Positions 2,022 to 32,530 of a stretch of DNA of 38,279 bases are shown here, in pieces. The stretch lies in the NCBI GenBank assembly GCA_016178625.1, contig JACOSX010000028.1, positions 1 through 38,279 of the forward strand, given 5' to 3'. A program made the translations under genes and the position numbers. Position 1 is the stretch's first letter. The number at the start of each line of letters is the position of its first letter. A model generated the notes under the pieces. That model was not told the DNA's origin and searched no databases. It saw only the letters and a list, made by a program, of their open reading frames with translations. The stretch is from Ignavibacteria bacterium. GTDB lineage: Bacteria; Bacteroidota; Ignavibacteria; UBA10030; SZUA-254.

Positions 2022-2135
2022 GTGGTAAGCACTTCCATTGATGTTGTGCGGCCGCTTCTCGCTATTTTCCCGCTGGGCGTTTCCCTTCTCCTTATTAACC
2101 TCCTCGTCGTTTTGGCGCTGTTTATTAACAGCTAA
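2022..2135 (+). CDS. Ile/Leu/Val-rich leader peptide of the ilv-leu attenuator
   Basis: This short frame, absent from the ORF track, encodes 37 aa starting at GTG 2022 and stopping at TAA 2133. Twenty of the 37 residues are Leu, Val or Ile, with the densest stretch GVSLLLINLLVVLALFI near the end. A longer form starting at GTG 1989 (48 aa) is also possible, and neither start has a strong Shine-Dalgarno site. The position (about 50 nt after the predicted transcription start), the composition and the stop codon six bases ahead of an antiterminator arm are the hallmarks of attenuator leader peptides such as enterobacterial IlvL. It is probably a sensor of charged Leu/Val/Ile tRNA through ribosome stalling, with no function as a protein. 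The function is inferred from composition and RNA architecture. Confidence 0.72.
   Translation: MVSTSIDVVRPLLAIFPLGVSLLLINLLVVLALFINS
2117..2132 (+). promoter_or_regulatory. Leader hairpin over the end of the leader peptide (possible 1:2 stem)
   Basis: GCTGTT and AACAGC form a perfect 6-bp stem with loop TATT inside the last codons of the leader peptide. The bases GGC before it could also pair with GCC inside the antiterminator 5' arm. A translating ribosome would melt this hairpin. It could serve as the pause or anti-antiterminator stem of the attenuator. Confidence 0.45.
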
Positions 2136-2140
2136 CTAAA

Positions 2141-2215
2141 CGCCAGAGGTTAACTAAGCCCACACCAACATATAATCCCAACAGTTTAAACGGTTAAGCA
2201 AGGTTCCCTCTGGCG
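2141..2215 (+). promoter_or_regulatory. Antiterminator stem of the ilv-leu attenuator
   Basis: CGCCAGAGG (2141-2149) is perfectly complementary to CCTCTGGCG (2207-2215). The 5' arm begins six bases after the leader-peptide stop codon. A ribosome waiting at the stop would cover it, whereas one stalled on Leu/Val/Ile codons around 2085-2126 would leave it free. The 3' arm contains the CCTCT needed for the terminator stem, so the two structures exclude each other. This is direct sequence evidence for a switch; the mechanism is inferred. Confidence 0.7.
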
Positions 2216-2233
2216 GACAAGAGGATTTTTTTT
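2207..2233 (+). terminator. Attenuator terminator before ilvD
   Basis: CCTCT (2207-2211), an 8-nt loop and AGAGG (2220-2224) form a 5-bp stem followed by A and eight consecutive T (2226-2233). It lies 22 bases before the ilvD start codon. The stem is short for an intrinsic terminator, but the uninterrupted T tract and its overlap with the antiterminator arm support the role. Confidence 0.65.
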
Positions 2234-11154: not shown

Positions 11155-12057
11155 ATGGAAAAACATCAAGTTCACGTTGTCAATCAAACAATGCACCATC
11201 ACGTTCTTAATCGTTCCATAGCAGTTGTAGGCTCTGGTAACATGGGAACGGCATTGATGAAAGGAATCATCAATGCAAAATTGACTACGCCCGAAAAAAT
11301 CGTTGCGTGTGGGATTCACCTTGGTAAACTTCAAAATCTTTCAGCTCAATGGAATATCGGACACACGCTGAATCCTCTAGAGGCCGTCGAAACATCGGAG
11401 ATTGTGTTGCTTTGTGTCAAGCCCCAGACTGTGCCGAAGGTTCTCGATCAGATCAAGGGTTCTCTGCACGAACGGCACGTATTGATTTCCATCGCCGCCG
11501 GCATGAAGATTGAGTACTTTCAGAAACGCATCGGAAAAAATTTGCCGGTGGTGCGCGCCATGCCCAACATCGCTTCCACAGTGGATGAAGGGGCAACAGC
11601 GCTTTCCTTTGGTGCATGTGTTTCCGAGGAACAGCAGCGCATTGCAATCTCCATTTTCGAGGCGGTCGGTGAAGTGGTTGTCGTCGCAGAGGAACAGCTT
11701 GATGCAGTCACCGGCCTGAGCGGCAGCGGTCCCGCATACATTTATATGGTGATCGAAGCACTGATCGATGGAGGTGTGAAGATGGGATTATCTCGAGAGA
11801 TCTCAACGAGATTGGCAGTCCAAACCGTTCTTGGCTCAGCGAAGCTTGTGAAAACATCAGGCTTACATCCAGCAATTTTGCGAGATCAAGTCACTACTCC
11901 CGCGGGAACCGCTATTAATGCAATTCATGAGCTTGAGTCACACGGATTACGTTCGATGTTAATTAACGCGGTAGCCACAGCGACACGCCGCTCTGAAGAA
12001 ATCAGTCAGTCTTTCAGCAAACCAAACTATCAGAATGACAAGGCAGGGGATTCGTAA
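11155..12057 (+). CDS. proC: Pyrroline-5-carboxylate reductase
   Basis: ProC reduces 1-pyrroline-5-carboxylate to proline with NAD(P)H. An N-terminal Rossmann motif (SIAVVGSGNMGTALMKGII) begins at about residue 21. The C-terminal dimer domain carries the family signature around VTGLSGSGPAYIYMVIEALIDGG and RDQVTTPAGTAINAIHELE. Length is 300 aa, slightly long because of about 20 extra N-terminal residues rich in His and Gln. Start ATG 11155 is preceded by TAAGGTGACCAT, which overlaps the leuD stop and provides a weak Shine-Dalgarno. Proline synthesis has no direct link with the surrounding pathway, so its presence inside the leu cluster is a curiosity. Confidence 0.93.
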   Translation: MEKHQVHVVNQTMHHHVLNRSIAVVGSGNMGTALMKGIINAKLTTPEKIVACGIHLGKLQNLSAQWNIGHTLNPLEAVETSEIVLLCVKPQTVPKVLDQIKGSLHERHVLISIAAGMKIEYFQKRIGKNLPVVRAMPNIASTVDEGATALSFGACVSEEQQRIAISIFEAVGEVVVVAEEQLDAVTGLSGSGPAYIYMVIEALIDGGVKMGLSREISTRLAVQTVLGSAKLVKTSGLHPAILRDQVTTPAGTAINAIHELESHGLRSMLINAVATATRRSEEISQSFSKPNYQNDKAGDS

Positions 12058-12061
12058 AACG

Positions 12062-13624
12062 ATGGACACGATCGTCCACATCTATGACACAACATTACGA
12101 GATGGTACTCAACGGGAGGGGATATCACTCTCGTGCGACGATAAATTGAAGATTGCCCGTAAGCTCGATGACCTCGGTGTGGATTTCATCGAAGGTGGCT
12201 GGCCCGGCTCGAATCCAAAGGATGAGGAATTTTTCAGACGAGCGCAACACCTTAAGTTACACCACGCTGTCATCACAGCATTTGGATCGACGTGTCGCGT
12301 CAACGGCAATCCAAAAGACGACCCCAATATCAAGGCGTTGCTTGATGCCAACACAAGCGTTTGTACTATTGTCGGCAAAACCTCCATGTTACATGTTACC
12401 GACGTCCTGCGCACGACGGCTGGTGAAAACTTGAGGATTATCGAACAGAGTATTGCCTATCTCGTACAGCACGGTCGCCGTGTGTTCTACGACGCCGAAC
12501 ACTACTTCGATGGTTATAAGCTCGATACGGAGTATGCTTTGGAGACGCTACGAGCCGCTCATCGTGGTGGTGCCGAAATCAGCATCTTGTGCGATACGAA
12601 CGGCGGTGCAATGCCTTGGGAGGTTGAGGAGATCGTTTGTGCCACGAGAGATGAATTGGATATGTCGTTGGGGATTCACACGCACAATGATGGTGAATGT
12701 GCGGTTGCCAATGCTCTTGCCGCAGTGAGAAAAGGGTGTGTGCAGGTTCAGGGAACGATCAATGGTTATGGAGAACGCTGCGGTAATGCAAATCTTATTT
12801 CTGTTATCTGTAATCTTCAACTGAAGATGGGATACAAATGTTTGCCCGAAACTGGTCTTCAGCATCTCACGGAATTAGCACACCTTATCGCAGAGGTGGC
12901 AAATCTCGCTCCCGATGAACACATGGCGTATGTTGGTAATTCTGCGTTTGCGCATAAAGGTGGTATCCACGTTGCAGCCATTCGGCGTAACCCGAATTCT
13001 TACCAGCATATCGATCCACACATTGTCGGTAACAAGACGCGGGTTGTTGTTTCGGAATTATCAGGCAGAGGAAATCTTCTGAGCAAAGCCGAGGAGTTTG
13101 AGTTGGAAGTCCATGCCGAAGAAGATCTCGCCCATGTGCTCGATGAGATCAAGGCGCTCGAAGCGAAAGGCGGTTCCTTCGAAGCCGCAGAAGCCTCCGT
13201 GGCGATGATGCTTAAACGGTTGCAGAAAGAGTACAAGCCACCATTTGAGCTGGTGGACCTCACGGTGAATGTTGAACACCGGCAGGGACGCGGTATCTTT
13301 GCCGAAGCTACAGTGAAGGTGAAGGTGAATGGCGAGGTAATCCACACTGTCGCAGAAGGTGTTGGTCCGGTTCACGCTCTGGACAGTGCATTGAGGAAAG
13401 CCCTCGTGCCAGTCTATCCGGCTCTCCAGGAATTCCAGCTTGCTGATTATAAGGTCCGTATTCTCGACGGGGACAATGGCACAGCAGCTACCACTCGCGT
13501 CCTTATCGACACCCAGAACGGAACAAAGCGCTGGAGTACCGTTGGCGCAAGTGCAAACATCATCGAAGCAAGTTGGTATGCACTGGCTGATAGCATAGAG
13601 TACGGATTAACGTTAACAGATTAA
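12062..13624 (+). CDS. cimA: (R)-citramalate synthase
   Basis: CimA condenses pyruvate and acetyl-CoA to citramalate, the entry to the threonine-independent route to 2-oxobutanoate and isoleucine. The DRE-TIM barrel opens IVHIYDTTLRDGTQREGISL; the sequence RDGTQREG and GGWPGSNPKDEEFF, with HTHNDGECAVANALAAV, mark the CimA subfamily and not LeuA. A C-terminal regulatory domain (from about 380) resembles that of LeuA. I chose ATG 12062, four bases after proC and behind AGGGGATT; the ORF-track start at 12035 adds nine residues overlapping proC. From 12062 the protein is 520 aa. It would work with LeuCD and LeuB encoded in the same operon. Confidence 0.93.
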   Translation: MDTIVHIYDTTLRDGTQREGISLSCDDKLKIARKLDDLGVDFIEGGWPGSNPKDEEFFRRAQHLKLHHAVITAFGSTCRVNGNPKDDPNIKALLDANTSVCTIVGKTSMLHVTDVLRTTAGENLRIIEQSIAYLVQHGRRVFYDAEHYFDGYKLDTEYALETLRAAHRGGAEISILCDTNGGAMPWEVEEIVCATRDELDMSLGIHTHNDGECAVANALAAVRKGCVQVQGTINGYGERCGNANLISVICNLQLKMGYKCLPETGLQHLTELAHLIAEVANLAPDEHMAYVGNSAFAHKGGIHVAAIRRNPNSYQHIDPHIVGNKTRVVVSELSGRGNLLSKAEEFELEVHAEEDLAHVLDEIKALEAKGGSFEAAEASVAMMLKRLQKEYKPPFELVDLTVNVEHRQGRGIFAEATVKVKVNGEVIHTVAEGVGPVHALDSALRKALVPVYPALQEFQLADYKVRILDGDNGTAATTRVLIDTQNGTKRWSTVGASANIIEASWYALADSIEYGLTLTD

Positions 13625-15741: not shown

Positions 15742-16800
15742 ATGGCACTAATCGATTTTGGCGGTATCAAAGAGGAAGTAATCACTCGAGAAGAATTTCC
15801 GCTTGTGAAGGCGCAGCGGGTTTTGGAAAACGAAATCGTCGCAATTCTTGGATACGGTCCTCAAGGGCAGGGACAATCGTTAAACCTGCGTGACAACGGA
15901 ATTAATGTGATCGTCTATCAGCGAAAAGGAGGAAAAGGATGGAGTGATGCGATTCACGATGGTTGGGTAGAAGGCAAAAATCTTTACTCAGAAATTGATG
16001 AGGTGATGCAACAAGCATCCATCGTTCAATACCTGCTTTCGGATGCCGGGCAGAAGGAGCAATGGCACACGGTGAAAAAGAATCTGAGGAAAGGTCAGGC
16101 ATTGCACTTCTCTCACGGCTTCTCGGTTGTTTTCAAAGAACAAACGGGCGTCATCCCACCGCCGGATGTTGATGTGATCCTTGTAGCGCCGAAAGGTGCA
16201 GGACGAACCGTACGATCAAACTATCTTACAGGCAGTGGTATCAATGCGAGCTACGCAGTCTATCAGGATGCTACCGGTAGAGCCCACCAGCGTGCCGTTG
16301 CACTTGGGATTGCAATAGGTTCGGGGTATCTGTTTGCGACGACCTTCGAAAGAGAAGTATATAGTGACCTTACAGGCGAGCGCGGTGTGCTCATGGGAGC
16401 GATCGCAGGGGTCATGAAGGCTCAGTATGATACGCTTCGAGCAATGGGTCATTCGCCGAGTGAAGCGTTCAACGAGACTGTTGAAGAAGCAACACAGAGT
16501 TTGTACCCCTTGATCGGTAAGAACGGTATGGATTGGATGTTCGCCTCATGCAGCACCACAGCGCAGCGAGGCGCACTTGATTGGTCCAAGCGCTTTGAAA
16601 CCGCCGTGAAGCCTCTGTTTGAATTGCTCTACCGGAATGTGCAGGAAGGATTGGAAACGAAGCGTGTCTTGGATGCCTGTGGTGTACCTGATTACCGCGC
16701 GAAACTTCAGAAAGAATTGGATGAGTGGAAAAACTCTGAAATGTGGCGCGCCGGGGCTGTCGTTCGGTCGTTGCGACCGGAGAATCAAAAAAATGACTGA
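15742..16800 (+). CDS. ilvC: Ketol-acid reductoisomerase
   Basis: IlvC rearranges and reduces acetolactate and acetohydroxybutyrate to dihydroxy acids, the substrates of IlvD. The Rossmann motif AILGYGPQGQGQSLNLRDNG is at about residues 34-53. The knotted C-terminal KARI domain includes TFEREVYSDLTGERGVLMGAIAG, with the conserved acidic metal ligands. Spacing and wording (VQYLLSDAGQKEQW, APKGAGRTVRSNY) match the form common in Bacteroidota. The 352 aa length is between class I and class II, closer to class I. AGAAAGGGA lies before ATG 15742. The 48-nt gap from ilvE holds no obvious promoter. Confidence 0.96.
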   Translation: MALIDFGGIKEEVITREEFPLVKAQRVLENEIVAILGYGPQGQGQSLNLRDNGINVIVYQRKGGKGWSDAIHDGWVEGKNLYSEIDEVMQQASIVQYLLSDAGQKEQWHTVKKNLRKGQALHFSHGFSVVFKEQTGVIPPPDVDVILVAPKGAGRTVRSNYLTGSGINASYAVYQDATGRAHQRAVALGIAIGSGYLFATTFEREVYSDLTGERGVLMGAIAGVMKAQYDTLRAMGHSPSEAFNETVEEATQSLYPLIGKNGMDWMFASCSTTAQRGALDWSKRFETAVKPLFELLYRNVQEGLETKRVLDACGVPDYRAKLQKELDEWKNSEMWRAGAVVRSLRPENQKND

Positions 16801-16869
16801 CCGTCAACAATGAACACGAAGATGTTACCTCAATTATTCTCTTAATCATTTACATAGCAAGGAGATGAT

Positions 16870-17118
16870 ATGTCGATCCAGTCTAACAATGTTCATCATG
16901 CCTCTGTCCAGGATGTTGAACTATTGCTGGAACAAGAGAAGAAAGCAGTGGAAACATATTGGCACGAGGCTGCTCACATCGAAGATCCAGCACTGAAAAC
17001 ACTTTTTAAGAGACTTGCAGAACTTCGCGCACGATGTTGCGCCGAACTCGAATCGCATATGACCGAGGCAAAATCTCAAAACGTGATCGTTGGGCAAATT
17101 AATGAGATGTTCTGGTAA
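16870..17118 (+). CDS. Small helical protein of unknown function (possible ferritin-like hairpin)
   Basis: An 82 aa protein behind a strong Shine-Dalgarno (AAGGAGATGAT before ATG 16870). It is predicted by eye to be two long amphipathic helices: DVELLLEQEKKAVETYWHE and, after the turn IEDPALK, a second helix TLFKRLAELRARCCAELES. The pattern (E..AV..Y..EA...DP.LK......AE) recalls the half-ferritin/rubrerythrin type of helical hairpin. The usual paired ExxH metal ligands are incomplete: EAAH is present in helix 1, while helix 2 has a CC pair where a histidine would be expected. I do not recognise the family with confidence. It lies between ilvC and gltB, in the same direction and probably the same transcript. 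Confidence 0.7.
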   Translation: MSIQSNNVHHASVQDVELLLEQEKKAVETYWHEAAHIEDPALKTLFKRLAELRARCCAELESHMTEAKSQNVIVGQINEMFW

Positions 17119-17145
17119 TATAAGAACGGCAAGAGAGGCTCACTG

Positions 17146-17382
17146 ATGAACGGAAATGCGTGCTCTGTAGATTTATGCCGGGGATCAAGTGTCGCCCGAG
17201 GGTTATGTTGGAAACATTACGTGCGGTGGCGTCGCCATGGCGATGCGCTTTTCACTAAACGTGGCTACAGAATGCCATATCACTGCCGCCGCTGTGGAAC
17301 AACAACGCCGAGTTCCTTTTACGCCTATTACAAAAGTATCTGCAAGGTTTGTCGAAAACTGAGAATCCTCCAGAAGGATTGA
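17146..17382 (+). CDS. Small double zinc-finger protein of unknown function
   Basis: A 78 aa basic protein with two likely zinc sites. The first is CSVDLCRGSSVARGLCWKHY followed by VRWRRHGD, a Cys-Cys-Cys-His arrangement often seen in phage HNH-type and DNA-binding proteins (CSV..C....ARGLC..HY.RWRRHGD). The second is a ribbon formed by CRRC and CKVC at about residues 47-69. Start ATG 17146 follows AAGAGAGGCTCACTG. The net positive charge suggests nucleic acid binding. It sits 27 nt after the 82 aa gene and 62 nt before gltB, so it is likely co-transcribed. It could be a regulator of the adjacent genes or a stray phage-type gene; sequence alone does not decide. Confidence 0.68.
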   Translation: MNGNACSVDLCRGSSVARGLCWKHYVRWRRHGDALFTKRGYRMPYHCRRCGTTTPSSFYAYYKSICKVCRKLRILQKD

Positions 17383-17444: not shown

Positions 17445-20400
17445 ATGGAATTCTTTGATCGCGAAGAACGATCGAGTTGCGGCGTTGGGTTTGTCGCAAA
17501 CAGAAAATGTGAATACAGTCATTCCATTTTGCAGGAAACGCTTCGGGCATTGCGCTGTATGGAGCACCGTGGTGCCTGCGGTGCTGATGGTCTCACCGGC
17601 GATGGCGCCGGGGTCATGACGGATATTCCGTTCGAGCTTTTCGGTTACAAGAAACGCGAGGTTGCCGTTGCTACGCTGTTCATGCCGCGCGATCCGTTAC
17701 GCATGAAGCAATCGCTGGATGTTTTTGAATCTACCTTCGCCCTGTACGAACTGGAGGTTGTTGACTATCGCGAAATACCTGTGAACGTGTCCGTCCTCGG
17801 CGAGGAAGCGTTGCATACCATGCCGGCGATGAGACATGCAATCATCCGCCGACCTAAACACTGTCGAACCGATGCTTCATTCGACAAAGTGTTGCATGCT
17901 GCTAAGCAGCGAGTTCGCACGAAACAATCACAGCACGGCATTAACAAAGAATTCTTCTTCACTTCTCTCTCTGCCAACACCATCGTTTACAAAGGGCTCA
18001 CGCGCGCAGAGGTGACCGATCAATTCTACCTTGATTTACAAAATCCTAACTTCAAAACTCGGTTTGCGATGTTCCATCGGCGTTACAGCACCAACACACG
18101 AACCTCGTGGGACAAAGCGCAGCCATTTCGATTAATCGGCCACAACGGTGAGATCAACACTATCGAAGGCAATCGCTCGTGGGCGCTATCAAGGGAAAAA
18201 TCACTCGGTCTCCCACCTGATCAGCTTCTCACACACACAGGCATCAGCGATTCGGGTAGTCTGAACGAGATGGTTGAAGCGCTCATGAATCGCAGCAGTA
18301 TCCCGCAGATTGAAGATATTCTTGCCATCATGATGCCGCCGGCGTTCGGGCAGAATGATTTCTACAAGTTTTGGAGCCGTGCAATGGAGCCATGGGATGG
18401 ACCGGCGATCATTTTGTATTCCGACGGGAATACTGTCGGGGCACGGCTTGACCGCAATGGCTTCCGTCCCGCTCGCTGGGCACTTACTGAAGACACGTTC
18501 TATCTTTCTTCTGAAGCTGGCGCGTTTGCAATTGACGACGCAGCAATCCTTCGAAAGGGAATTCTCCATGGAGGTACCGGTGTCAAGGTAGATTTGAAAA
18601 ATGGTAGGGTTCACTTCCGCGATCCAGGTCTCTCGCGTGAAAATAGGGATGCAAAATTTGATCCGCGGACAATTCCTATCACATCATATCCTCTTGAGGG
18701 TGAAGAGCATGTCTCTGTTTTCAGGAAGAATCTGTTCACAATCACACAGGAGGAACTTGGGCGCGTTCTCTATACCATGATCGCTGAAGGCAAGGAGCCG
18801 ATCGGATCCATGGGTGACACCGCCCGACCGAATGTGTTCTCTTCCGAACCCCGCCCGTTCTTCGATTACTTCTACCAGAACTTCGCTCAGGTCACCAACC
18901 CTCCGCTTGATTACATGCGGGAAAAAAATGTCACTGATATGCGTGTGTTTCTTGGACGGAAGCCCAACATCTTTTTTGCCAAAGATCTGATCCCGCTTGA
19001 GCCAGCCATCGAAGTTCCGAGTCCTGTCTTGAGTCTTGGGCAAATGAAATTCATTGAAGACTTGCAGACGAAGCGCCCGTCGGAATCGCACATTATCCCT
19101 AAGGTCTTCAGCATGACATTCAAGCGGTGCGAAGGCGTGATAGGATTTCGTGCGAGCATCGATCGGCTACGGGCGGATGTATTGAAAGCGGTTGAAGACG
19201 GGACCACCGTTATTATCCTCAGTGATAAACATGCTGACTACGAGAACCCGCCAATCCCGAGTTTGATTGCGTTACGGGCAGTTGTGCGGGTGCTCAATAA
19301 TTCCGGTCTGCGATTCAACGCGTCTATTGTCATATATTCGGGCGAAGTGCGTACGCCTCATCATGTTGCAGCGTTGGTAAGTTTTGGGGCTTCTGCCGTA
19401 TGCCCATACCTTGCACTTGAAATTGCACGCAACGATACGCATGAAAGCTTCAAACATCTCACACGAGACCAGAGAGAACAGAATCTTATCAATGCACTTG
19501 AAGCAGGGCTGCTCAAGATTATGTCAAAGTGTGGTATTTCTGTCGTGCAAGGTTACATGAGCTCGAAGCTGTTTACTGCTGTTGGTTTGGGAAACGAATT
19601 GATGGACGATTTCTTTCCCGGCAGGAAGACACCCCTTGGTGGCATCGGATATGAGGAATTAGCTGAAGATATTTTATGGAAAACAGGATTGGCAAAACTC
19701 CCTGAATATTCAAACAAACTCATCAACACATATCAATTCCGCGAGAATGTCAAAGGAAACGCCGGTGAGAAACACTCAATCACGAGCGAACGGGCGAGGG
19801 TTGTTCACAAGATTGTCAGAACTGAGCGCACTCCTGAAGAAACGGTCGCAACCTATAAACAATACGTGCACCTCGGTGATGAAGCGGAGCCCGTCAATAT
19901 ACGGCACCTGTTTAACCTGAAACAGGCTGAAAAGTCACTTCCGATTGAACAAGTACAGTCACGCGAGAAGATTTTGAAGCAGTTTGGTTCAGGGGCAATG
20001 TCGTTCGGAGCCATCAGTGCCGAAGCGCAACGCGACATTATTTTGGCAATGAGAGAACTTGGCGGACGAAGCAATAGCGGCGAGGGCGGCGAGAATCCAT
20101 ACTACTTCACGCATGGTATCACCGCATCGACAAAGCAGGTTGCCTCGGCGCGGTTTGGTGTAACGGCTGAGTATCTCATTTCGGGAAGAGAGCTACAAAT
20201 TAAGATTGCTCAAGGCGCAAAACCGGGTGAGGGTGGACAGCTCATGAGTGTAAAAGTAAATCCCGACATCGCGCGTGCGCGCCATTCTTACCCCCATGTA
20301 GACCTTATCTCGCCGCCGCCGCTCCACGATATTTACAGCATCGAGGATTTGAAAGAACTGATCTACGAGCTGAAGCAGGTCAATCCGGGCGCGGAGGTTA

Positions 20401-21860
20401 GCCTAAAAGTTGTCGCAGGAACAAACATTGGCACTATCGCTGTTGGCATTGCAAAAGCTGGGGCAGATATTATCCACATTGCTGGCGGTGACGGCGGGAC
20501 AGGCGCGGCTACCATTGGATCAATGAAACATGCAGGACTTCCGTGGGAATTTGGATTGTCAGAAGTGCACAATGCACTCTGTGTGAATAAGCTTCGAGGC
20601 ACTGTCCGGCTTCGTGTGGATGGAGGATTGATGACTGGCAAAGATGTAATCATTGCAGCGGTCTTGGGCGCAGAAGAATTTGATTTCGGCAAGGTGCTGG
20701 TTGTCGCTCAAGGATGTATTATGGCGCGTGTGTGCGAGAAAAACACCTGTCCGACCGGCATCGCCACGCGATCGAAGGACCACATCGTTAAGCTGCTCAC
20801 ATTGATAGCAGACGATGTGCGGCAGCAACTCGCCGGATTGGGCGCGCAATTACTTCGGGAGATTGTAGGACGCACAGACCTTCTTGTTCTCTCACCGAGG
20901 CACGAGGAGTTCGTTCGACAGCGAAAGCTTGATCTTTCGTACTTCCTCGATTCACCCTCCGCTGGCATCACACCCGGTATTCGGCAAGTTGTTGAAGGGA
21001 TAAGTACCCTCAACAAACAGATTTTTGATGATGCATATCAAGCGATCGTGACCCACAGGACTGTTGATTTCAGTTATGATGTGTCGACGAGTGACCGCGC
21101 TGTGCTTGCGTATCTCTCCGGCGAAATTGCACGCAGAGTGTACAAACAGCGTTTGAGAGGAATGGGTCAACACGTTGAAGCACCCTGTAAAGGGTCGGTC
21201 AATGTCACATTCACCGGGAGTGCGGGTCAAGGATTTTGCGTGTTCCTTGTGGATGGCATCAACGTACGTTTGTTTGGCGAGGCAAACGATTCTGTGTGCA
21301 AATCTATGTCAGGAGGCAACGTCATAATTCAGCCGCATCCACGAGCACAGTTTTCACCTGAAGACAACGTTATCATTGGTAACTGTGCCCTCTATGGTGC
21401 AACCGGCGGAAACATCTTCGTGAGAGGGCTTGCAGGTGACCGGTTCGCTGTTCGCAACAGTGGAGCAACTGCGGTTGTGGAGGGAACGGGTTTGCATGCT
21501 TGTGAGTACATGACAAAAGGCACCATTGCTATCCTCGGTAAAGTATCATACAACGTTGGGGCTGGAATGACTGGTGGAACGCTCTACTTGAATAGAGATT
21601 ATGATGAATTCGTCAACAAAAATTATCTATCATTGTGTGAGATAGACAAAACCGACGAATTAGAATTCCGAACACTCATAGAAAAGCACTTCAAAGAAAC
21701 CGGGAGCTTCACTGCTCGTGAAATCCTCACAAATTGGGAACTTGCAAAAAAACGATATGTAAAATACGTTCCTATCAATTTTCTGGAGAGATCAGCGCGG
21801 CAACCTTTCTCCTCACAGAGACTCCACGAGTCAGACCTTGAGATTACGGCACGAAGTTAA
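17445..21860 (+). CDS. gltB: Glutamate synthase, large subunit
   Basis: GltB makes glutamate from glutamine and 2-oxoglutarate. The 1471 aa protein has the full alpha-subunit layout: class II glutaminase domain with catalytic Cys12 in ERSSCGVGF (the first 11 residues are likely removed), a central domain (about 460-740), an FMN-binding synthase barrel (about 790-1160) and a C-terminal GXGXG beta-helix (about 1220-1410). The 3Fe-4S cysteines are Cys1091, Cys1097 and Cys1102 in CIMARVCEKNTCPTG. No gltD follows, so the small subunit is encoded elsewhere or the enzyme takes electrons from ferredoxin. As last gene of the ilv-leu operon it can feed glutamate to the aminotransferase IlvE. Confidence 0.96.
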   Translation: MEFFDREERSSCGVGFVANRKCEYSHSILQETLRALRCMEHRGACGADGLTGDGAGVMTDIPFELFGYKKREVAVATLFMPRDPLRMKQSLDVFESTFALYELEVVDYREIPVNVSVLGEEALHTMPAMRHAIIRRPKHCRTDASFDKVLHAAKQRVRTKQSQHGINKEFFFTSLSANTIVYKGLTRAEVTDQFYLDLQNPNFKTRFAMFHRRYSTNTRTSWDKAQPFRLIGHNGEINTIEGNRSWALSREKSLGLPPDQLLTHTGISDSGSLNEMVEALMNRSSIPQIEDILAIMMPPAFGQNDFYKFWSRAMEPWDGPAIILYSDGNTVGARLDRNGFRPARWALTEDTFYLSSEAGAFAIDDAAILRKGILHGGTGVKVDLKNGRVHFRDPGLSRENRDAKFDPRTIPITSYPLEGEEHVSVFRKNLFTITQEELGRVLYTMIAEGKEPIGSMGDTARPNVFSSEPRPFFDYFYQNFAQVTNPPLDYMREKNVTDMRVFLGRKPNIFFAKDLIPLEPAIEVPSPVLSLGQMKFIEDLQTKRPSESHIIPKVFSMTFKRCEGVIGFRASIDRLRADVLKAVEDGTTVIILSDKHADYENPPIPSLIALRAVVRVLNNSGLRFNASIVIYSGEVRTPHHVAALVSFGASAVCPYLALEIARNDTHESFKHLTRDQREQNLINALEAGLLKIMSKCGISVVQGYMSSKLFTAVGLGNELMDDFFPGRKTPLGGIGYEELAEDILWKTGLAKLPEYSNKLINTYQFRENVKGNAGEKHSITSERARVVHKIVRTERTPEETVATYKQYVHLGDEAEPVNIRHLFNLKQAEKSLPIEQVQSREKILKQFGSGAMSFGAISAEAQRDIILAMRELGGRSNSGEGGENPYYFTHGITASTKQVASARFGVTAEYLISGRELQIKIAQGAKPGEGGQLMSVKVNPDIARARHSYPHVDLISPPPLHDIYSIEDLKELIYELKQVNPGAEVSLKVVAGTNIGTIAVGIAKAGADIIHIAGGDGGTGAATIGSMKHAGLPWEFGLSEVHNALCVNKLRGTVRLRVDGGLMTGKDVIIAAVLGAEEFDFGKVLVVAQGCIMARVCEKNTCPTGIATRSKDHIVKLLTLIADDVRQQLAGLGAQLLREIVGRTDLLVLSPRHEEFVRQRKLDLSYFLDSPSAGITPGIRQVVEGISTLNKQIFDDAYQAIVTHRTVDFSYDVSTSDRAVLAYLSGEIARRVYKQRLRGMGQHVEAPCKGSVNVTFTGSAGQGFCVFLVDGINVRLFGEANDSVCKSMSGGNVIIQPHPRAQFSPEDNVIIGNCALYGATGGNIFVRGLAGDRFAVRNSGATAVVEGTGLHACEYMTKGTIAILGKVSYNVGAGMTGGTLYLNRDYDEFVNKNYLSLCEIDKTDELEFRTLIEKHFKETGSFTAREILTNWELAKKRYVKYVPINFLERSARQPFSSQRLHESDLEITARS

Positions 21861-25884: not shown

Positions 25885-26029
25885 TAGTCAGTAAAGAGAG
25901 CGTAAACCTCTCTATAGTATTCGTCCCCCTGCCGCAGTAAATTTCCTAAAAGGTTGCTCTTCGTTGCAACCGGTGCCATGTCAAGAGCACACATCAAGTA
26001 ACTATTATAGAAAGGAGAGAATTAATCGT

Positions 26030-27760
26030 ATGAAATCCATCGCAATCTTTGCACTGGTGATGTTGATGTTCGGAATCGGAGCGGCACAAATTCCGCACAC
26101 GATATCATACCAGGGATACTACACTAATGGTGGCGGTCAGCCAATCACTGGTACGTATCCAATGACCTTCAAGCTGTACACTCAGGCAAATGGCGGCTCG
26201 CCGACGTGGTCACAGACCTTCGCGAGCGTACCGATCACTAAGGGAGTCTACAGCGTGGTGCTCGACGTCTCAACCGTTGTGTTCGATCGGCAGTATTGGC
26301 TGGAGACGGTGATCAATGGAGTGACCAGCACAAACCGAACGCAATTGACTGGCGTGCCCTACTCGCTTGCCCCGTGGGCACCGAAAGATACTAACGTCTA
26401 TCTTGCCGAAGGAAATGCAGGGATAGGGACGACGACTCCTGCTACAAAGCTGGACATCAGAGGGAACTTAACTCTTGATCCTGGAGATAGCCCTGTCCTC
26501 TTTACAGGAACCGGTTCCAGTGAACTCAATCGATACCTCAATCTCATTAACTCACCGTTATCTCCAAGCGCCTCGGGTCTCAAAGCAGGTGGTATTCTAA
26601 TTTCCGATAGCTACAGCTACGCGAATCCCGGGAAGAATGACTTAGTAGTAAGGGGCAGCGTAGCCATAGGGGGGACATCAAGCCCTAGCCACCAGTTGAC
26701 AGTTTGGGGAACCGATCTGGGAAATGGAAGCTTTGCGTCGTTCACTTCCACAAACCCCATTATCTGCTGCCCACCTCCAACGGAACTGCTCGTCGGTGCT
26801 TACGCTGGAGAAGGCATTATCTCAGCCATGGGCAGCCTTGATGATCTCGACCTGAGAGCGGGCGGAAACAACACGCGGGTGTTTATCAAATACGATGGCA
26901 ATGTAGGTATTGGCACGACTACGCCGGCCAGCAAACTGGATATCAATGCCCAAGACGGGCTGAGAATTTTTGGTTACCAACCATTTCTGACGTTGACCGA
27001 TGCGAATGCCGGAAATGCACGGGCAAGAGTGCAGTGTGCCAATGGAGACGTTAACCTCTTTACCGAGAGTTCCCTTTCCGGCGGGAATGAATATATGGTT
27101 ATGAAGTCTGGCTCCGGTAATGTCGGCATCGGAACGGCGAATCCCGCTGAGAAGTTGCACGTGGCGGGATCTTTTTTAAGGGTTGATGGCGCAGGCAATG
27201 AGCAAGCTTATCTTGGTGGTGATGGCGCTGGGGGCGATGTTCAGCTGGGTAGCTCTAACCCAGCTGTTCCCAATGTCGCATTGTATAATACCGCCACTAA
27301 TAAATACATGAATATGTATCTCGGCGTGCTCAATATCAGTGGCGGTAGTGATGTGGCTGAACCGTTTGAGACAATTGAAAGCAGTGAGTCAGAACCAGGG
27401 ACCGTCATGATCATTGATGCTGACAACCCAGGTAAGTTGAAGATGAGCGAGCATCCATATGATCCGAAGGTTGCAGGTGTTGTGAGCGGAGCAGGAGGGG
27501 TGAAAGCAGGCCTAACACTCCAGCAACATGGAGTCATGGAAGGAAACTCGCTGATTGCAATCGCCGGCCGTGTGTACTGCAAGGCTGAGGCGCTCTCGGC
27601 GTCCATTGCGCCTGGTGATTTGCTAACAACATCTGACATTTCTGGCTACGCCATGAAGGTGACCGATAAGGAACGATCAAATGGCACAGTTATCGGTAAA
27701 GCGATGTCTTCGCTGAAGAGTGGTAAAGGACTTGTGCTCGTGTTGATCAATCTTCAATAA
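26030..27760 (+). CDS. Exported GIGTTTP-repeat protein (tail-fibre-like)
   Basis: An exported protein of 576 aa when started at ATG 26030, which follows AAAGGAGAGA; the ORF-track start at 25964 adds 22 unlikely residues. A signal peptide (MKSIAIFALVMLMFGIGAAQ) precedes an N-terminal domain (PHTISYQGYYTNGGG...GVYSVVLD) shared with the protein at 30507. Three repeats of the type GNVGIGTTTPASKLDI follow, reminiscent of phage tail-fibre and surface-structure modules. The C-terminal part (from about SGGSDVAEPFETIES) is a conserved-looking domain with VAGVVSGAGGV and PGDLLTTSDISGYAMKV. I infer a cell-surface or extracellular role. There is no T9SS sorting tail, and no enzymatic motif was recognised. 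Confidence 0.8.
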   Translation: MKSIAIFALVMLMFGIGAAQIPHTISYQGYYTNGGGQPITGTYPMTFKLYTQANGGSPTWSQTFASVPITKGVYSVVLDVSTVVFDRQYWLETVINGVTSTNRTQLTGVPYSLAPWAPKDTNVYLAEGNAGIGTTTPATKLDIRGNLTLDPGDSPVLFTGTGSSELNRYLNLINSPLSPSASGLKAGGILISDSYSYANPGKNDLVVRGSVAIGGTSSPSHQLTVWGTDLGNGSFASFTSTNPIICCPPPTELLVGAYAGEGIISAMGSLDDLDLRAGGNNTRVFIKYDGNVGIGTTTPASKLDINAQDGLRIFGYQPFLTLTDANAGNARARVQCANGDVNLFTESSLSGGNEYMVMKSGSGNVGIGTANPAEKLHVAGSFLRVDGAGNEQAYLGGDGAGGDVQLGSSNPAVPNVALYNTATNKYMNMYLGVLNISGGSDVAEPFETIESSESEPGTVMIIDADNPGKLKMSEHPYDPKVAGVVSGAGGVKAGLTLQQHGVMEGNSLIAIAGRVYCKAEALSASIAPGDLLTTSDISGYAMKVTDKERSNGTVIGKAMSSLKSGKGLVLVLINLQ

Positions 27761-27863: not shown

Positions 27864-28949
27864 ATGAAACACTTTATATACTTGATTCTCCTTGCCGTTG
27901 CAGGTGTTGTCACTGCACAGAACCAGCCTGTCGCATGGGATAAGGACATCCCTGTCCCTACTTCACCCTTTCAGCCCGATCTTACACCTGGCTACGTTCT
28001 GATCGAAGGAGACATCCAAATACCACTGGCACAGTACAATGCTATGTTCGAGGCCATCAAAGGCGCCAAAGGTGAAATCCGGCCCATGGCGACCTATGGT
28101 CCTGCCACATTGTGGCCGAATAACACCGTTCCGTATGACTTTGTTGACACTGGTAACGGAGGTGTCTCATCCGCCAACCGAACCGCCGCAATGAATGCAA
28201 TGAACAATATTGCCGCGAGGGCAGGCGTGATATTTCGCCCCGCTTTGGGTGGCGACGCAAATCGGATTCGGTTCCAGAACAGTTCCTTCAATAACTCGCC
28301 GGTTGGTGTCCAAGGCGGGGTACAAATCATCAACATCGCCAACTGGGGGAATTCTATCGTCATTTGTCATGAGGTCTTCCATTCTCTTGGATTCCAGCAC
28401 GAACAGAGTCGTCCCGACCGCAACACCTATGTGACTATCAACTCGGCAAGCGTATGCGGCACTGGAAGTAGCGGTACTTGTGCACCAGCCACCTGCCAGA
28501 TGTGTCAGAACAATCAGGGCAATTGGGTCTCATGTATGTATAACTTTGATATCGTATCCCAGAGTAACACGTACGGACCTTACGACTTTGATTCGTTCAT
28601 GCACTACGGTGCATTTTCTTTCTCATGCGATGGAAACGCCACCATCATGGTGAACTCGCCGTACACTGCCACTATCGGTCAGCGCAATCACTTTTCCTAT
28701 TTCGACGCCATCACGTGTCGTGCGCTCTACCCCTTCGGCAACGACCGCTGGTTGGACCGGGCTTATGGGGGTTCAACTGCTGGCACTTTCCAGCAGCCTT
28801 ATAACAATACGACTCTTGCCGGAGCCCTGGCTAACGTTCCCAGTGGTGGTACGCTGTTTATCAAATTCATGAACACGTACAGTGCGGTGGGCACGTATAG
28901 CACACCAGTCACCATCATCGCCCCTAACGGTGCTGTCTTAGGCAATTGA
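27864..28949 (+). CDS. Exported astacin-like (M12A) zinc metalloprotease
   Basis: A secreted protease of 361 aa. The signal peptide MKHFIYLILLAVAGVVTAQ precedes a short pro-region and the astacin catalytic domain (about 85-295). The zinc motif HEVFHSLGFQHEQSRPDR (His169, His173, His179) and the Met-turn SFMHYG (Met246, Tyr248) are intact, so it should be an active metallopeptidase. Between them lies an insertion with five cysteines (VCGTGSSGTCAPATCQMCQ and NWVSC) that standard astacins lack. The last 65 residues resemble the start of a beta-helix region but end without a T9SS tail. AAAGGATATGCC precedes ATG 27864. It probably acts outside the cytoplasmic membrane; the substrate is unknown. 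Confidence 0.88.
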   Translation: MKHFIYLILLAVAGVVTAQNQPVAWDKDIPVPTSPFQPDLTPGYVLIEGDIQIPLAQYNAMFEAIKGAKGEIRPMATYGPATLWPNNTVPYDFVDTGNGGVSSANRTAAMNAMNNIAARAGVIFRPALGGDANRIRFQNSSFNNSPVGVQGGVQIINIANWGNSIVICHEVFHSLGFQHEQSRPDRNTYVTINSASVCGTGSSGTCAPATCQMCQNNQGNWVSCMYNFDIVSQSNTYGPYDFDSFMHYGAFSFSCDGNATIMVNSPYTATIGQRNHFSYFDAITCRALYPFGNDRWLDRAYGGSTAGTFQQPYNNTTLAGALANVPSGGTLFIKFMNTYSAVGTYSTPVTIIAPNGAVLGN

Positions 28950-29024
28950 TTAAAGACCGATGTGACCTTCAATGCTAAAAGGGATTTAATGAGTCATCAA
29001 GGATTATAAGAAGGAGTAGTAACC

Positions 29025-30059
29025 ATGAATACGCTAAAAGCTCTCGGATTAATATTTATCTCGTGTGTCTCAGTCACTTTGCTGAGCGCACAGCAGTTCA
29101 ACCTCGAGTTCTCCGTCGTCGGTACGGGAGGGGGCGTTACATCGATTGGCCCAGACACACTCATCCTCACGCTTGGGCAGCCGCTTGCAGGAGAGAGTTC
29201 AGCTGATTCTAATCTTAACTCGAGCGGCTTCCTTTATCAGTACAGCGGAGGACCAATCGATGCGTATGTTGGGGTCTACTCTGTTATCGATGGATGGAAC
29301 ATGGTCTCCGTGCCTCGTACGGTGAGTGACTACAGCAAGTCAGCAGTTTTTCCGTCAGCAGTCTCAAATGCATTTGCTTACGAAGGATCATACGTGATCA
29401 AGTCCACACTCGCCAACGGCGTGGGATACTGGCTGAAGTTTAGCAACAACCAGCAGGTCTCGATGACAGGCTACACACACACTCTTGATACAGTAAATGT
29501 GCAACAAGGCTGGAACATGATCGGCTCTATTTCTCAGTCAATTCTTGTAACAACGATACCTTCTATCCCATCAGGCATTGTAACCTCGAATTTCTTCGGC
29601 TATCAAGGGAGTTATATCATTAGCAGTACGATTGAACCGGGCAAAGCATATTGGGTGAAGGTGAATCAAAACGGAAAATTGATCTTGTCCTCTTCATCGA
29701 GCAACCCAAGCTCGGTACCGATCAGGATTGTTCCCACGTCAGAATTGCCGCCACCGCCGCCTGAGCGAGAAATGGCGGAAGTGAAGGAAGTGCCAAAGGA
29801 ATTTGCGCTCAGACAGAACTACCCGAATCCATTCAATCCCACGACCGTTATCCATTTCGAGCTTCCAGTTGCGAGCCACGTCTCGCTGAAGGTCTACAAC
29901 GTGCTCGGGCAGGAAGTAGCAATGTTAGTAGATGAGATGCAGGATGCCGGTTTCAAGTCAGTGCAGTGGGATGCCAGTCATACTCCAAGTGGCGTATACT
30001 TCTATCGATTAAATGCTGGCACTTTCTATGATGTGAAGAGAATGTTATTACTGCGATGA
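29025..30059 (+). CDS. Exported protein with T9SS type A C-terminal sorting domain
   Basis: A 344 aa exported protein. Signal peptide MNTLKALGLIFISCVSVTLLSAQ, then a beta-rich region with two similar units (YSVIDGWNMVSVPRTVSDYS... and VNVQQGWNMIGSISQSI...). Each unit contains a GSY(V/I)I segment and a YWLK/YWVK segment. A proline-rich linker (ELPPPPPERE) leads to a T9SS type A sorting domain at about 263-344: ALRQNYPNPFNPTT, LKVYNVLGQEVAML, SGVYFYRLNAG and terminal KRMLLLR. The sorting domain directs passage through the outer membrane by the type IX system, followed by surface attachment or release. GAAGGAGTAGTAACC precedes ATG 29025. The function of the duplicated region is unknown. Confidence 0.88.
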   Translation: MNTLKALGLIFISCVSVTLLSAQQFNLEFSVVGTGGGVTSIGPDTLILTLGQPLAGESSADSNLNSSGFLYQYSGGPIDAYVGVYSVIDGWNMVSVPRTVSDYSKSAVFPSAVSNAFAYEGSYVIKSTLANGVGYWLKFSNNQQVSMTGYTHTLDTVNVQQGWNMIGSISQSILVTTIPSIPSGIVTSNFFGYQGSYIISSTIEPGKAYWVKVNQNGKLILSSSSSNPSSVPIRIVPTSELPPPPPEREMAEVKEVPKEFALRQNYPNPFNPTTVIHFELPVASHVSLKVYNVLGQEVAMLVDEMQDAGFKSVQWDASHTPSGVYFYRLNAGTFYDVKRMLLLR

Positions 30060-30075
30060 GGCTTACTCGCCTCAT
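30056..30075 (+). terminator. Hairpin across the stop codon of the T9SS protein gene
   Basis: ATGAGGC (30056-30062), loop TTACTC and GCCTCAT (30069-30075) make a perfect 7-bp stem that includes the TGA stop codon. Only a few T bases follow (GCTTTCC), so it may be a weak terminator or mRNA 3'-end stabiliser. Confidence 0.4.
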
Positions 30076-30103
30076 GCTTTCCATCCTCTGCGCCCGATGA
30101 CCC

Positions 30104-30445
30104 ATGATCATGATTGTCGACGATAACGCTGCGATGCGGGCAATAATGAAACAGTATATCCAGAGCATTAAAGTCAATCACGAATTTTACGAATGCGGTG
30201 ATGGCTTTGAAGCAGTTGATGCATTCCGGCGCCTTCACCCTGATTGGGTGCTCATGGATATCAAGATGCCAACGATGGATGGCTTGACTGCGACGAAAAC
30301 GATTCGTCAACAATTTCCCAGCGCGCGCGTTATCATCGTGACAAATTTTGATGATCCGGAATTGAGAGATGCTGCACAGAAAAGCGGTGCAACGGGATAT
30401 GTGTTAAAGGAGCGTCTGTTTGAGCTTCAGGGGTTGATGGCGTGA
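30104..30445 (+). CDS. Receiver-only response regulator (CheY-like)
   Basis: A 113 aa single receiver domain. Acidic residues are in VDDN (Asp6/Asp7), the phospho-acceptor is Asp52 in WVLMDIKMPTMDG, the Thr in IIVTNFDD and the Lys in YVLKER complete the active site. There is no output domain, and the C-terminal helix is short, ending LFELQGLMA. ATG 30104 has no Shine-Dalgarno; ATG 30110 is an in-frame alternative. It sits between two exported-protein genes on the same strand, so it may relay signals from one of the neighbouring kinases or act by protein contact. It could also be the remnant of a longer LuxR-type regulator, as the sequence resembles NarL-type receivers. Confidence 0.85.
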   Translation: MIMIVDDNAAMRAIMKQYIQSIKVNHEFYECGDGFEAVDAFRRLHPDWVLMDIKMPTMDGLTATKTIRQQFPSARVIIVTNFDDPELRDAAQKSGATGYVLKERLFELQGLMA

Positions 30446-30506
30446 GCCAAATGTTTATCATTAACCCATTAACCAATGTTTAACCAACATCATAAGGAGT
30501 AATATC

Positions 30507-31901
30507 GTGAAACATCTTCTTGTTACAGTTGTGATCGCTTTGATCACTTTCCCGACGTTTGCTCACGCGCAGATCCCAGGGACACCGAAGAAAATATCGT
30601 ACCAGGGCGCTTTAACGTACGTCGATTCGCACGGTAAGACCAAGGCTGTCAAGAAGGGCACGTACTCCCTCACATTCCAGTTGTTTGATGATCCGACGGC
30701 AGGAAATTCTGTAGTGAGCGAAACTCGATCGGTTACATCAGACAAAAACGGAGTATACAGTGTAACCCTTGGGGAGGATGGATCCCCTCAAGGCAACCTG
30801 AACACAAACTTCGATCAGTTGCTTTGGTTAAAGGTCACCGTCAACTCGGGACCGGAGACAAAGATTACCTACCCGTTTGCGCTTCTTCGCGTGCAGTTGA
30901 CAAGTGTACCGTACAGCCTCAATAGCTCACATGCGGACACTGCAGAGTATGTAAGAAATGTTTCTTCCGGTGGCGGCACCCTGTTGGTGGACTCTTCAAA
31001 CCACTTTGTGGGAGTAAACCGCTCCCAACTCTTCGGCGATGAATTTTTTGGTGTTTTAGCCCCGGTAGCAGATGGCAGCTACGGGGGAATGTTTATTTCC
31101 ACCGGCAACTCCGACGGCTGGCCGTATTATGGATATGAAACCCGTACCAAAAGGGCCTTTACCTATCTGAACAGTCAGACCAATAACTGGCATGTGAACT
31201 TCCCTTTTGACGGCGGAGATGTTCTCACAGTCACCTCGAATGGCAGCGTTGGCATCGGCACGACGACTCCGAATCATCTACTCCGAATTGGTTCTGGCCC
31301 GTTATGGACTTCCAGTAGTTGGGGAGGGGCTCTGGAGCTGGAAAATGGAGCGGCGATTGGTTGGCATGCGAATGGGGCGGGTAACAGATTTGGAATGGGG
31401 CACACGAACAATGGATTCTATATATTTCGCACCGCCAGCGAGCCGGGAAACGCTGGAAGCCCTGCCACATACGATTTCCTGATTAATGACAACGGAAACG
31501 TCGGCATCGGGACAACGAATCCATCATCCACATTGGACGTTGCGGGAGATTTACACGTAAGCGGTAATATCATTGGCTCCACAGCCTGGACCGATCTTCC
31601 ACTACCAGCTGGGTTCGTCGGTCCTGCTCAGTATCGCAAGATTGGTGATATAGTATATCTGAGGGGCGCAATCGGTAAGGCAGATAACTCACATTTCGAT
31701 GATTTTGCAGTAATCGGTACGCTCCCAGCGGGGTTCAGACCGCCGGGGGGACGGCCTTTCGTCAGGTATTTTGCAGCGTACTATAATGATATCGCACTTC
31801 AAATAAATGACACCGGTGACCTCGTTTCGTACAACGAGTGCTTGAATTGTGGTGGCGGCACCATGTATCTTGACGGTGTCTTTTTTTCCACCACTCCCTA
31901 A
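30507..31901 (+). CDS. Exported GIGTTTP-repeat protein, paralogue of 26030-27760
   Basis: A 464 aa exported protein starting at GTG 30507 behind ATAAGGAGTAATATC. Signal peptide MKHLLVTVVIALITFPTFAHAQ, then the N-terminal domain KKISYQGALTY...KGTYSLTFQLFDD...NGVYSVTLGED, clearly related to that of 26030-27760. Two repeats of the GIGTTTP type occur (GSVGIGTTTPNHLLRI and GNVGIGTTNPSSTLDV). The C-terminal domain (about 365-464: LPLPAGFVGPAQYRKIGDIVYLRGAIGK...GTLPAGFRP) resembles receptor-binding ends of phage tail fibres. The likely role is a surface or appendage component, perhaps adhesive; this is inferred from domain style. It is followed 17 nt later by a T9SS-sorted protein. Confidence 0.8.
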   Translation: MKHLLVTVVIALITFPTFAHAQIPGTPKKISYQGALTYVDSHGKTKAVKKGTYSLTFQLFDDPTAGNSVVSETRSVTSDKNGVYSVTLGEDGSPQGNLNTNFDQLLWLKVTVNSGPETKITYPFALLRVQLTSVPYSLNSSHADTAEYVRNVSSGGGTLLVDSSNHFVGVNRSQLFGDEFFGVLAPVADGSYGGMFISTGNSDGWPYYGYETRTKRAFTYLNSQTNNWHVNFPFDGGDVLTVTSNGSVGIGTTTPNHLLRIGSGPLWTSSSWGGALELENGAAIGWHANGAGNRFGMGHTNNGFYIFRTASEPGNAGSPATYDFLINDNGNVGIGTTNPSSTLDVAGDLHVSGNIIGSTAWTDLPLPAGFVGPAQYRKIGDIVYLRGAIGKADNSHFDDFAVIGTLPAGFRPPGGRPFVRYFAAYYNDIALQINDTGDLVSYNECLNCGGGTMYLDGVFFSTTP

Positions 31902-31918
31902 TTGAAGGAGAAGAATCT

Positions 31919-32530
31919 ATGACATGGAAAACTATAAGTAGTGTGCTCGTGATTGCAATCCTCTTGCTTTGGTCTTGCTCTATCCTTTACGGGCAGTCAT
32001 CGAGCCAGCTCGGCACTGCGACCGAGCAAGATGAGGAGGAGTTAATTCAGAGTGACTTGGAAGTTTCTGAATCAGCGAGTATACCATTCATGTACACCAT
32101 GACGAAAGGTACGTTTGAGGGGGCAGGGAGGGTACTCCTCTCCTCAAACGATGCAAGCACCGCAAGTGCGCTCGGTAGCCAAGGACAAATTGGTGTTCAA
32201 GATGAGACACCGGAGGACTACGCACTCTATTCGAACTATCCCAATCCCTTTAACCCAACGACGACCGTTCGCTTCGACTTGCCGATGAGCAGCATCGTGA
32301 CGCTGAAAGTCTATAACGTGCTCGGTCAAGAAGTTGCATCATTACTTGATCATGTGGAGATGGATGAAGGAGAACAAGAGATTGAGTTCTCCGCCGTAGG
32401 CGGATCCGCCTCAGGCGGAAATGCAAATGATCTCGCGTCAGGTGTGTACTTCTACCGTCTTGAGGCGAGGGATGTCGGTAACCGATCCAACATCTTCGTG
32501 CAAACAAAAAAAATGCTGCTTCTCAAATGA
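31919..32530 (+). CDS. Small exported protein with T9SS type A sorting domain
   Basis: A 203 aa protein behind TTGAAGGAGAAGAATCT. The signal segment KTISSVLVIAILLLWSCSILYG contains a Cys but not a standard lipobox, so a plain signal peptide is likely. Residues about 28-100 are acidic and of unknown fold. The T9SS type A domain spans about 103-203: YALYSNYPNPFNPTTT, LKVYNVLGQEVASLLD, ASGVYFYRLEA and the terminal TKKMLLLK. Inside the domain a loop reads SAVGGSASGGNAND, encoded by a tandem palindrome that looks inserted (see repeat entry). The protein may be a partner of the preceding GIGTTTP protein, given the 17-nt gap. Confidence 0.82.
   Translation: MTWKTISSVLVIAILLLWSCSILYGQSSSQLGTATEQDEEELIQSDLEVSESASIPFMYTMTKGTFEGAGRVLLSSNDASTASALGSQGQIGVQDETPEDYALYSNYPNPFNPTTTVRFDLPMSSIVTLKVYNVLGQEVASLLDHVEMDEGEQEIEFSAVGGSASGGNANDLASGVYFYRLEARDVGNRSNIFVQTKKMLLLK
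32390..32419 (+). repeat. Tandem 15-bp palindromes inside a T9SS domain gene
   Basis: TCCGCCGTAGGCGGA is followed directly by TCCGCCTCAGGCGGA. Each is a perfect 6-bp inverted repeat around three bases. The 30-bp block is a multiple of three and encodes about ten residues (AVGGSASGGN in context) in a loop of the sorting domain, where related domains have no such insertion. It looks like a small dispersed palindromic element that entered the gene in frame. I saw no other copy in this window. Confidence 0.6.

Follow-up and report, generated by a model that had tools for sequence, protein, structure and literature searches.

Why should two small genes, here called P1 and P2, separate ilvC from gltB in an operon for branched-chain amino acid (BCAA) synthesis? 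The locus lies in a stretch of 38,279 nucleotides from an Ignavibacteria bacterium (the window), whose genome is labelled G000; the other genomes, loci and families compared carry G, L and f labels. All genes of the operon are on the forward strand, in the order ilvD, ilvB, ilvN, DAHP synthase, leuA, leuC, leuD, proC, cimA, leuB, ilvE, ilvC, P1, P2 and gltB. The ten from ilvD to ilvE other than leuD were assigned by NCBIfam, among them the citramalate synthase gene cimA at 12035..13624 (TIGR00977, 704.8 bits against a cut-off of 450), and leuD, ilvC and gltB were identified by reading the sequence and by matches in the operons of relatives. P1 (82 aa) extends from its ATG at 16870 to its stop at 17118, and P2 (78 aa) from its ATG at 17146 to its stop at 17382, both as intact open reading frames. 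Read directly from the letters, P1 has the Shine-Dalgarno sequence AAGGAG at 16859..16864, 5 nt 5' of the ATG, and P2 a Shine-Dalgarno-like GAGAGG at 17133..17138. Intergenic distances are 69 nt between ilvC (ketol-acid reductoisomerase, 15742..16800) and P1, 27 nt between P1 and P2, and 62 nt between P2 and gltB (glutamate synthase large subunit, 17445..21860). The sequence-only reading had placed both genes here and noted the strong Shine-Dalgarno of P1, and the coordinates, the homologues and the purifying selection described below bear it out. Promoter-like and terminator-like matches between 16600 and 17600, from ilvC to gltB, were not above shuffle counts, and no Rfam family matched in the window. 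Elsewhere in the window, ORFs of 598 and 464 aa (25964-27760 and 30507-31901) had no Pfam match at E 1e-5, and 27864-32530 holds genes for a peptidase of the astacin type and for two proteins that carry a Por secretion tail.

P1 is predicted to be a two-helix hairpin of the EncFtn/rubrerythrin type. The AF2 model (pLDDT 83) is a hairpin of helices 13-36 and 40-81, a profile built from 15 homologues finds ferritin-like structures, EncB and EncFtn included, and Foldseek with the model ranked EncB, EncC and EncFtn first (EncB at TMq 0.66-0.70), with E-values above 0.05 of the kind that is usual for so small a hairpin. Model and Foldseek together place P1 in the EncFtn-type fold. In sequence it carries R53 and C56 at the ExxH sites, a CC pair (C56-C57) and the C-terminal tail INEMFW, and as such the ferritin-like hairpin with incomplete ligands and a CC pair that had been proposed from sequence has been upheld. 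Family models align in part: Pfam DUF2383 (PF09537) matches at 29.4 bits and E 9.5e-7 over 52 of 111 positions, short of its gathering cut-off of 30.8, and the PA2169 family (TIGR02284) at E 5.6e-4, also below cut-off. In both the first hairpin aligns with P1, but the second half of these 111- and 139-position models is missing. Rubrerythrin (PF02915) gave no match to the P1 of the window at E up to 10, and P1 has no second hairpin.

The best fold matches, EncB and EncFtn (PDB 7s5c, 7s5k, 5n5e, 5da5), share with P1 two antiparallel helices of similar length, but P1 differs from them in its INxMF tail, in its amino-acid operon context, and in lacking both the ExxH motif and an encapsulin in its genomes. 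EncFtn is defined by an ExxH motif that forms a ferroxidase centre at the dimer interface (PMC11202242), a motif that P1 does not have. These fold matches would suit a role for P1 as encapsulin cargo with INxMF as a targeting peptide, a reading that the missing ExxH and the distribution of shell proteins make extremely unlikely: Linocin_M18 (PF04454) was found in 0/23 P1 genomes, while control genomes were positive, and for shells covered by PF04454 cargo status is ruled out.

The distribution of P1 is patchy. Pairwise searches found homologues at E 1e-16 and weaker in at most 8 of 150 relatives, and across P1 and P2 profile matches extend to E 1e-32. In a profile search of 391 genomes of the class, strict P1 (E <1e-13) was present in 23, all with an [IM]NxMF tail. 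Among genomes that carry this type of IlvC, only 12 of 70 have strict P1, which is thus dispensable for BCAA synthesis as such. Of the wider family 94 members were examined, around the approximately 70 best matches, nearly in E-value order: 59 lie behind genes for a 2-oxoacid:ferredoxin oxidoreductase (KOR), 23 in BCAA operons and 6 in a multihaem-cytochrome operon, and 6 were unplaced. The 59 KOR-side genes are on the same strand as the KOR genes, which Pfam recognised as such through POR_N, PFOR_II, TPP_enzyme_C and POR, and mostly within 110 nt of them (1.6-2.3 kb in f7 and G197). A phylum-wide search with the KOR-side profile returned no members outside the class. G000 itself gave no KorC match, and its P1 is therefore independent of KOR. 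Several of these relatives have features of their own. Many on the KOR side (L139:4834-5094, L177:3446-3730 and others) carry an N-terminal C-x3-C-x3-C (CRNTC or CKNTC) before the hairpin and end in DGIxSSF, tandem P1-like genes stand behind korC in L135, L166 and L180 (f5), one with the ExxH pair and one without, and the multihaem-cytochrome operon of L133, L144 and L192-L195 (f20) includes a P1-like gene whose ligands are intact.

The 23 BCAA-operon members form one clade with support 98/97, which needs 1 change where shuffles average 20.9; in this tree, with its few columns and long branches, neither the finer branching nor the direction of transfer is safe. The clade is confined to BCAA operons, whose gene order and IlvC type vary, and its genes lie 3' of cimA, ilvC or ilvE. 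The commonest neighbour in other genomes is cimA, and in f12, f6 and f4 the P1 homologues are flanked by cimA on one side and by leuA or DAHP synthase on the other; P1 follows ilvC in G000, G058, G011 and G095, and ilvE in G049. Of the 15 genomes in the window's own family f1, only G000 and G011 have this ilvC, and in both it is followed by P1 and P2. Two ilvC-P1'-P2 copies, L041 and L044, are present in G011 (81% complete); contamination or strain mixing may explain this duplication. Conserved position had been expected to be informative, and so it was for P1 with cimA or ilvC and for P2 with cysG and cysM; the expectation failed for gltB as a conserved neighbour.

Within the family E23 is kept in 93/94 members, and many on the KOR side also keep the ExxH pair. 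In the BCAA clade the ExxH glutamate is kept in 0/21 members having the column, with K, R or H in its place. What the clade has conserved is the INxMF-type tail: I77 and N78 in 23/23, F81 in 22/23 and M80 in 21/23. Even the P1' copies of G011, from which 12 residues of helix 2 have gone, retain INEMF. The P1 of the window has this tail, stands in a BCAA operon and falls within the single clade. Both genes are under purifying selection. Among pairs with a measurable dS (many values were saturated), dN/dS for P1 was mostly 0.01-0.07, rising to 0.22 in the pair of G011 copies, and for P2 it was 0.07-0.27.

P2 contains two zinc fingers, C6-C11-C21-H24 and C47-C50-C66-C69, together with ARGLCWKHY..RWRRHGD, and the eight ligands are invariant in 14 sequences. 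It is strongly basic (17 K/R against 3 D/E, pI 10.1), and its structure model is poor (pLDDT 53). No Pfam family matched above cut-off, and in PHROGs P2 matches the front part of the phage HNH endonuclease family phrog_5351 (E 1.7e-7, model positions 5-66 of 171). Both fingers are shared with that family, but its approximately 105 remaining model positions have no counterpart in P2, in which nothing follows the fingers and there is no HNH catalytic domain. The earlier description of P2 as a double zinc finger with an HNH-linked motif therefore stands. Pairwise homologues (E 1e-22 to 1e-28) were found in at most 11 of 150 relatives; the class-wide search found P2 in 12/391 genomes, all at E <1e-33 and followed by no weaker match up to 1e-8, and GTDB r220 gave 13 clear loci, all in the Ignavibacteria-type group.

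Nearly all copies of P2 lie between the siroheme synthase gene cysG and cysM, in an operon that also has JAMM and ThiS-ThiF-rhodanese genes. In L042/G094 a rhodanese gene separates P2 from CysM, and in L052/G018 P2 lies outside any such operon. This usual home, with CysG, P2, CysM, JAMM and ThiS-ThiF-rhodanese, resembles the cysteine operons of CysO/JAMM/CysM type, which occur in mycobacteria and for which we found no zinc-finger member described in the open-access literature. P2 is found behind ilvC-P1 only in G000 and one relative, G011. G000 carries two copies, that of the window and one 61% identical to it in a cysteine operon (C113; L025:2711-7313) with a CysO-like ThiS-ThiF-rhodanese fusion, JAMM, CysM and CysG. 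In G103, a member of a genus that includes several P2 genomes, cysG and cysM form an empty site with no P2 between them, and P2 is thus an optional insert there. The P2 tree neither supports nor excludes a common origin of the three BCAA-located copies.

P1 and P2 are best read as operon-resident accessory genes, not as debris. An origin as insertion leftovers had been considered. Remnants of this kind between ilvC and gltB, whether neutral or selfish, would fit the patchy distribution of the two genes, the empty site in G103 and the resemblance of P2 to the N-terminal part of phage HNH nucleases. Even with P2 as an optional insert, we consider this very unlikely: dN/dS is well below 1, the zinc ligands are invariant, the same operon placement recurs in several families and the BCAA-operon P1 genes are a single clade. 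Scans of viral contigs with P1 and P2 gave no relatives, and the two phage matches of P2 are both partial, so that neither gene appears to belong to a present-day phage. Both are conserved beside related neighbours, and neither belongs to a phage family with unrelated neighbours. A rubrerythrin-like iron or redox function for P1, protecting or maturing the Fe-S enzymes IlvD, LeuCD and GltB, has more in its favour, namely the ferritin-like fold, the many KOR-side relatives that keep an E...ExxH half-site (two tested reach the Pfam Rubrerythrin cut-off) and the Fe-S nature of KOR. It is nonetheless improbable, given the K, R or H at the ExxH glutamate in every BCAA-clade member that has the column and a nearest gene that is usually cimA or ilvC; CimA and IlvC are not Fe-S enzymes. 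The earlier suggestion of a chaperone for Fe-S enzymes accordingly found no support in a P1 without ExxH ligands.

A regulatory role is possible for P2, acting on transcription or RNA of its operons in response to zinc, cysteine or nitrogen status. Its basic double finger, related to those of HNH proteins, and the location of all copies but one within a biosynthetic operon would be consistent with such a function, which is a narrower version of what the explanation favoured below proposes for P2 and, taken by itself, rather unlikely. By eye, the short intergenic stretches of P2 operons show no common operator, and the BCAA operon appears to have its own control. Positions 2022..2233 of the forward strand, before ilvD, read as a textbook leader-peptide attenuator, with a leader of 37 aa from a GTG start, 21 of them I, L or V (MVSTSIDVVRPLLAIFPLGVSLLLINLLVVLALFINS), and a T-run terminator from 2207 whose arm at 2207-2215 is perfectly complementary to an antiterminator arm at 2141-2149. 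Such an attenuator would suffice for BCAA control, so neither small gene is needed to explain regulation of the operon, and a regulatory P2 is unnecessary for it.

The explanation that we favour, while giving it as a whole slightly less than an even chance, is that P1 and P2 are unrelated, selected accessory genes, P1 docking on an enzyme and P2 binding nucleic acid. The P1 family would be two-helix half-ferritins encoded mainly behind KOR genes, of which one member apparently entered a BCAA operon once, giving the branch without ExxH and with an INxMF-type tail. P1 most likely dimerises into a four-helix bundle. A hairpin that lacks a metal site, with a tail kept even where helix 2 has been shortened, argues for a binding role, and the tail and gene context make docking on a BCAA enzyme our best guess, held with moderate confidence. 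The tail may dock on CimA in the first place, or on IlvC in the second, stabilising or modulating the enzyme without iron; the gene upstream of P1 varies (cimA, ilvC or ilvE), which leaves the partner ambiguous. The basic double finger of P2 suggests nucleic-acid binding, and P2 may be a domesticated finger pair of HNH-nuclease type, without the nuclease, that most likely binds DNA or RNA of its operon and would act mainly in the CysG-CysM cysteine operon and secondarily in this BCAA operon. It is conceivable, though doubtful, that half-ferritins across the class are tail-attached docking subunits of 2-oxo-acid enzymes, iron-binding on some KORs and iron-free on the BCAA enzyme.

Small extra proteins of KOR operons are known to us by description from Aq_1163, which co-migrates with the Aquifex OGOR, and from Kor2E of Bacteroides fragilis; in the open-access literature we found no described association of ferritin-like proteins or DUF2383 with KOR or BCAA operons. 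If P1 is an adaptor, a reading that its conserved tail makes directly testable, amino-acid synthesis would have put the ferritin fold to new use as a subunit free of metal, and the P1 family would offer an unrecognised extra component of KORs, enzymes central to anaerobic carbon metabolism. In P2, zinc fingers of nuclease type would have been domesticated for use in sulfur and BCAA metabolism.
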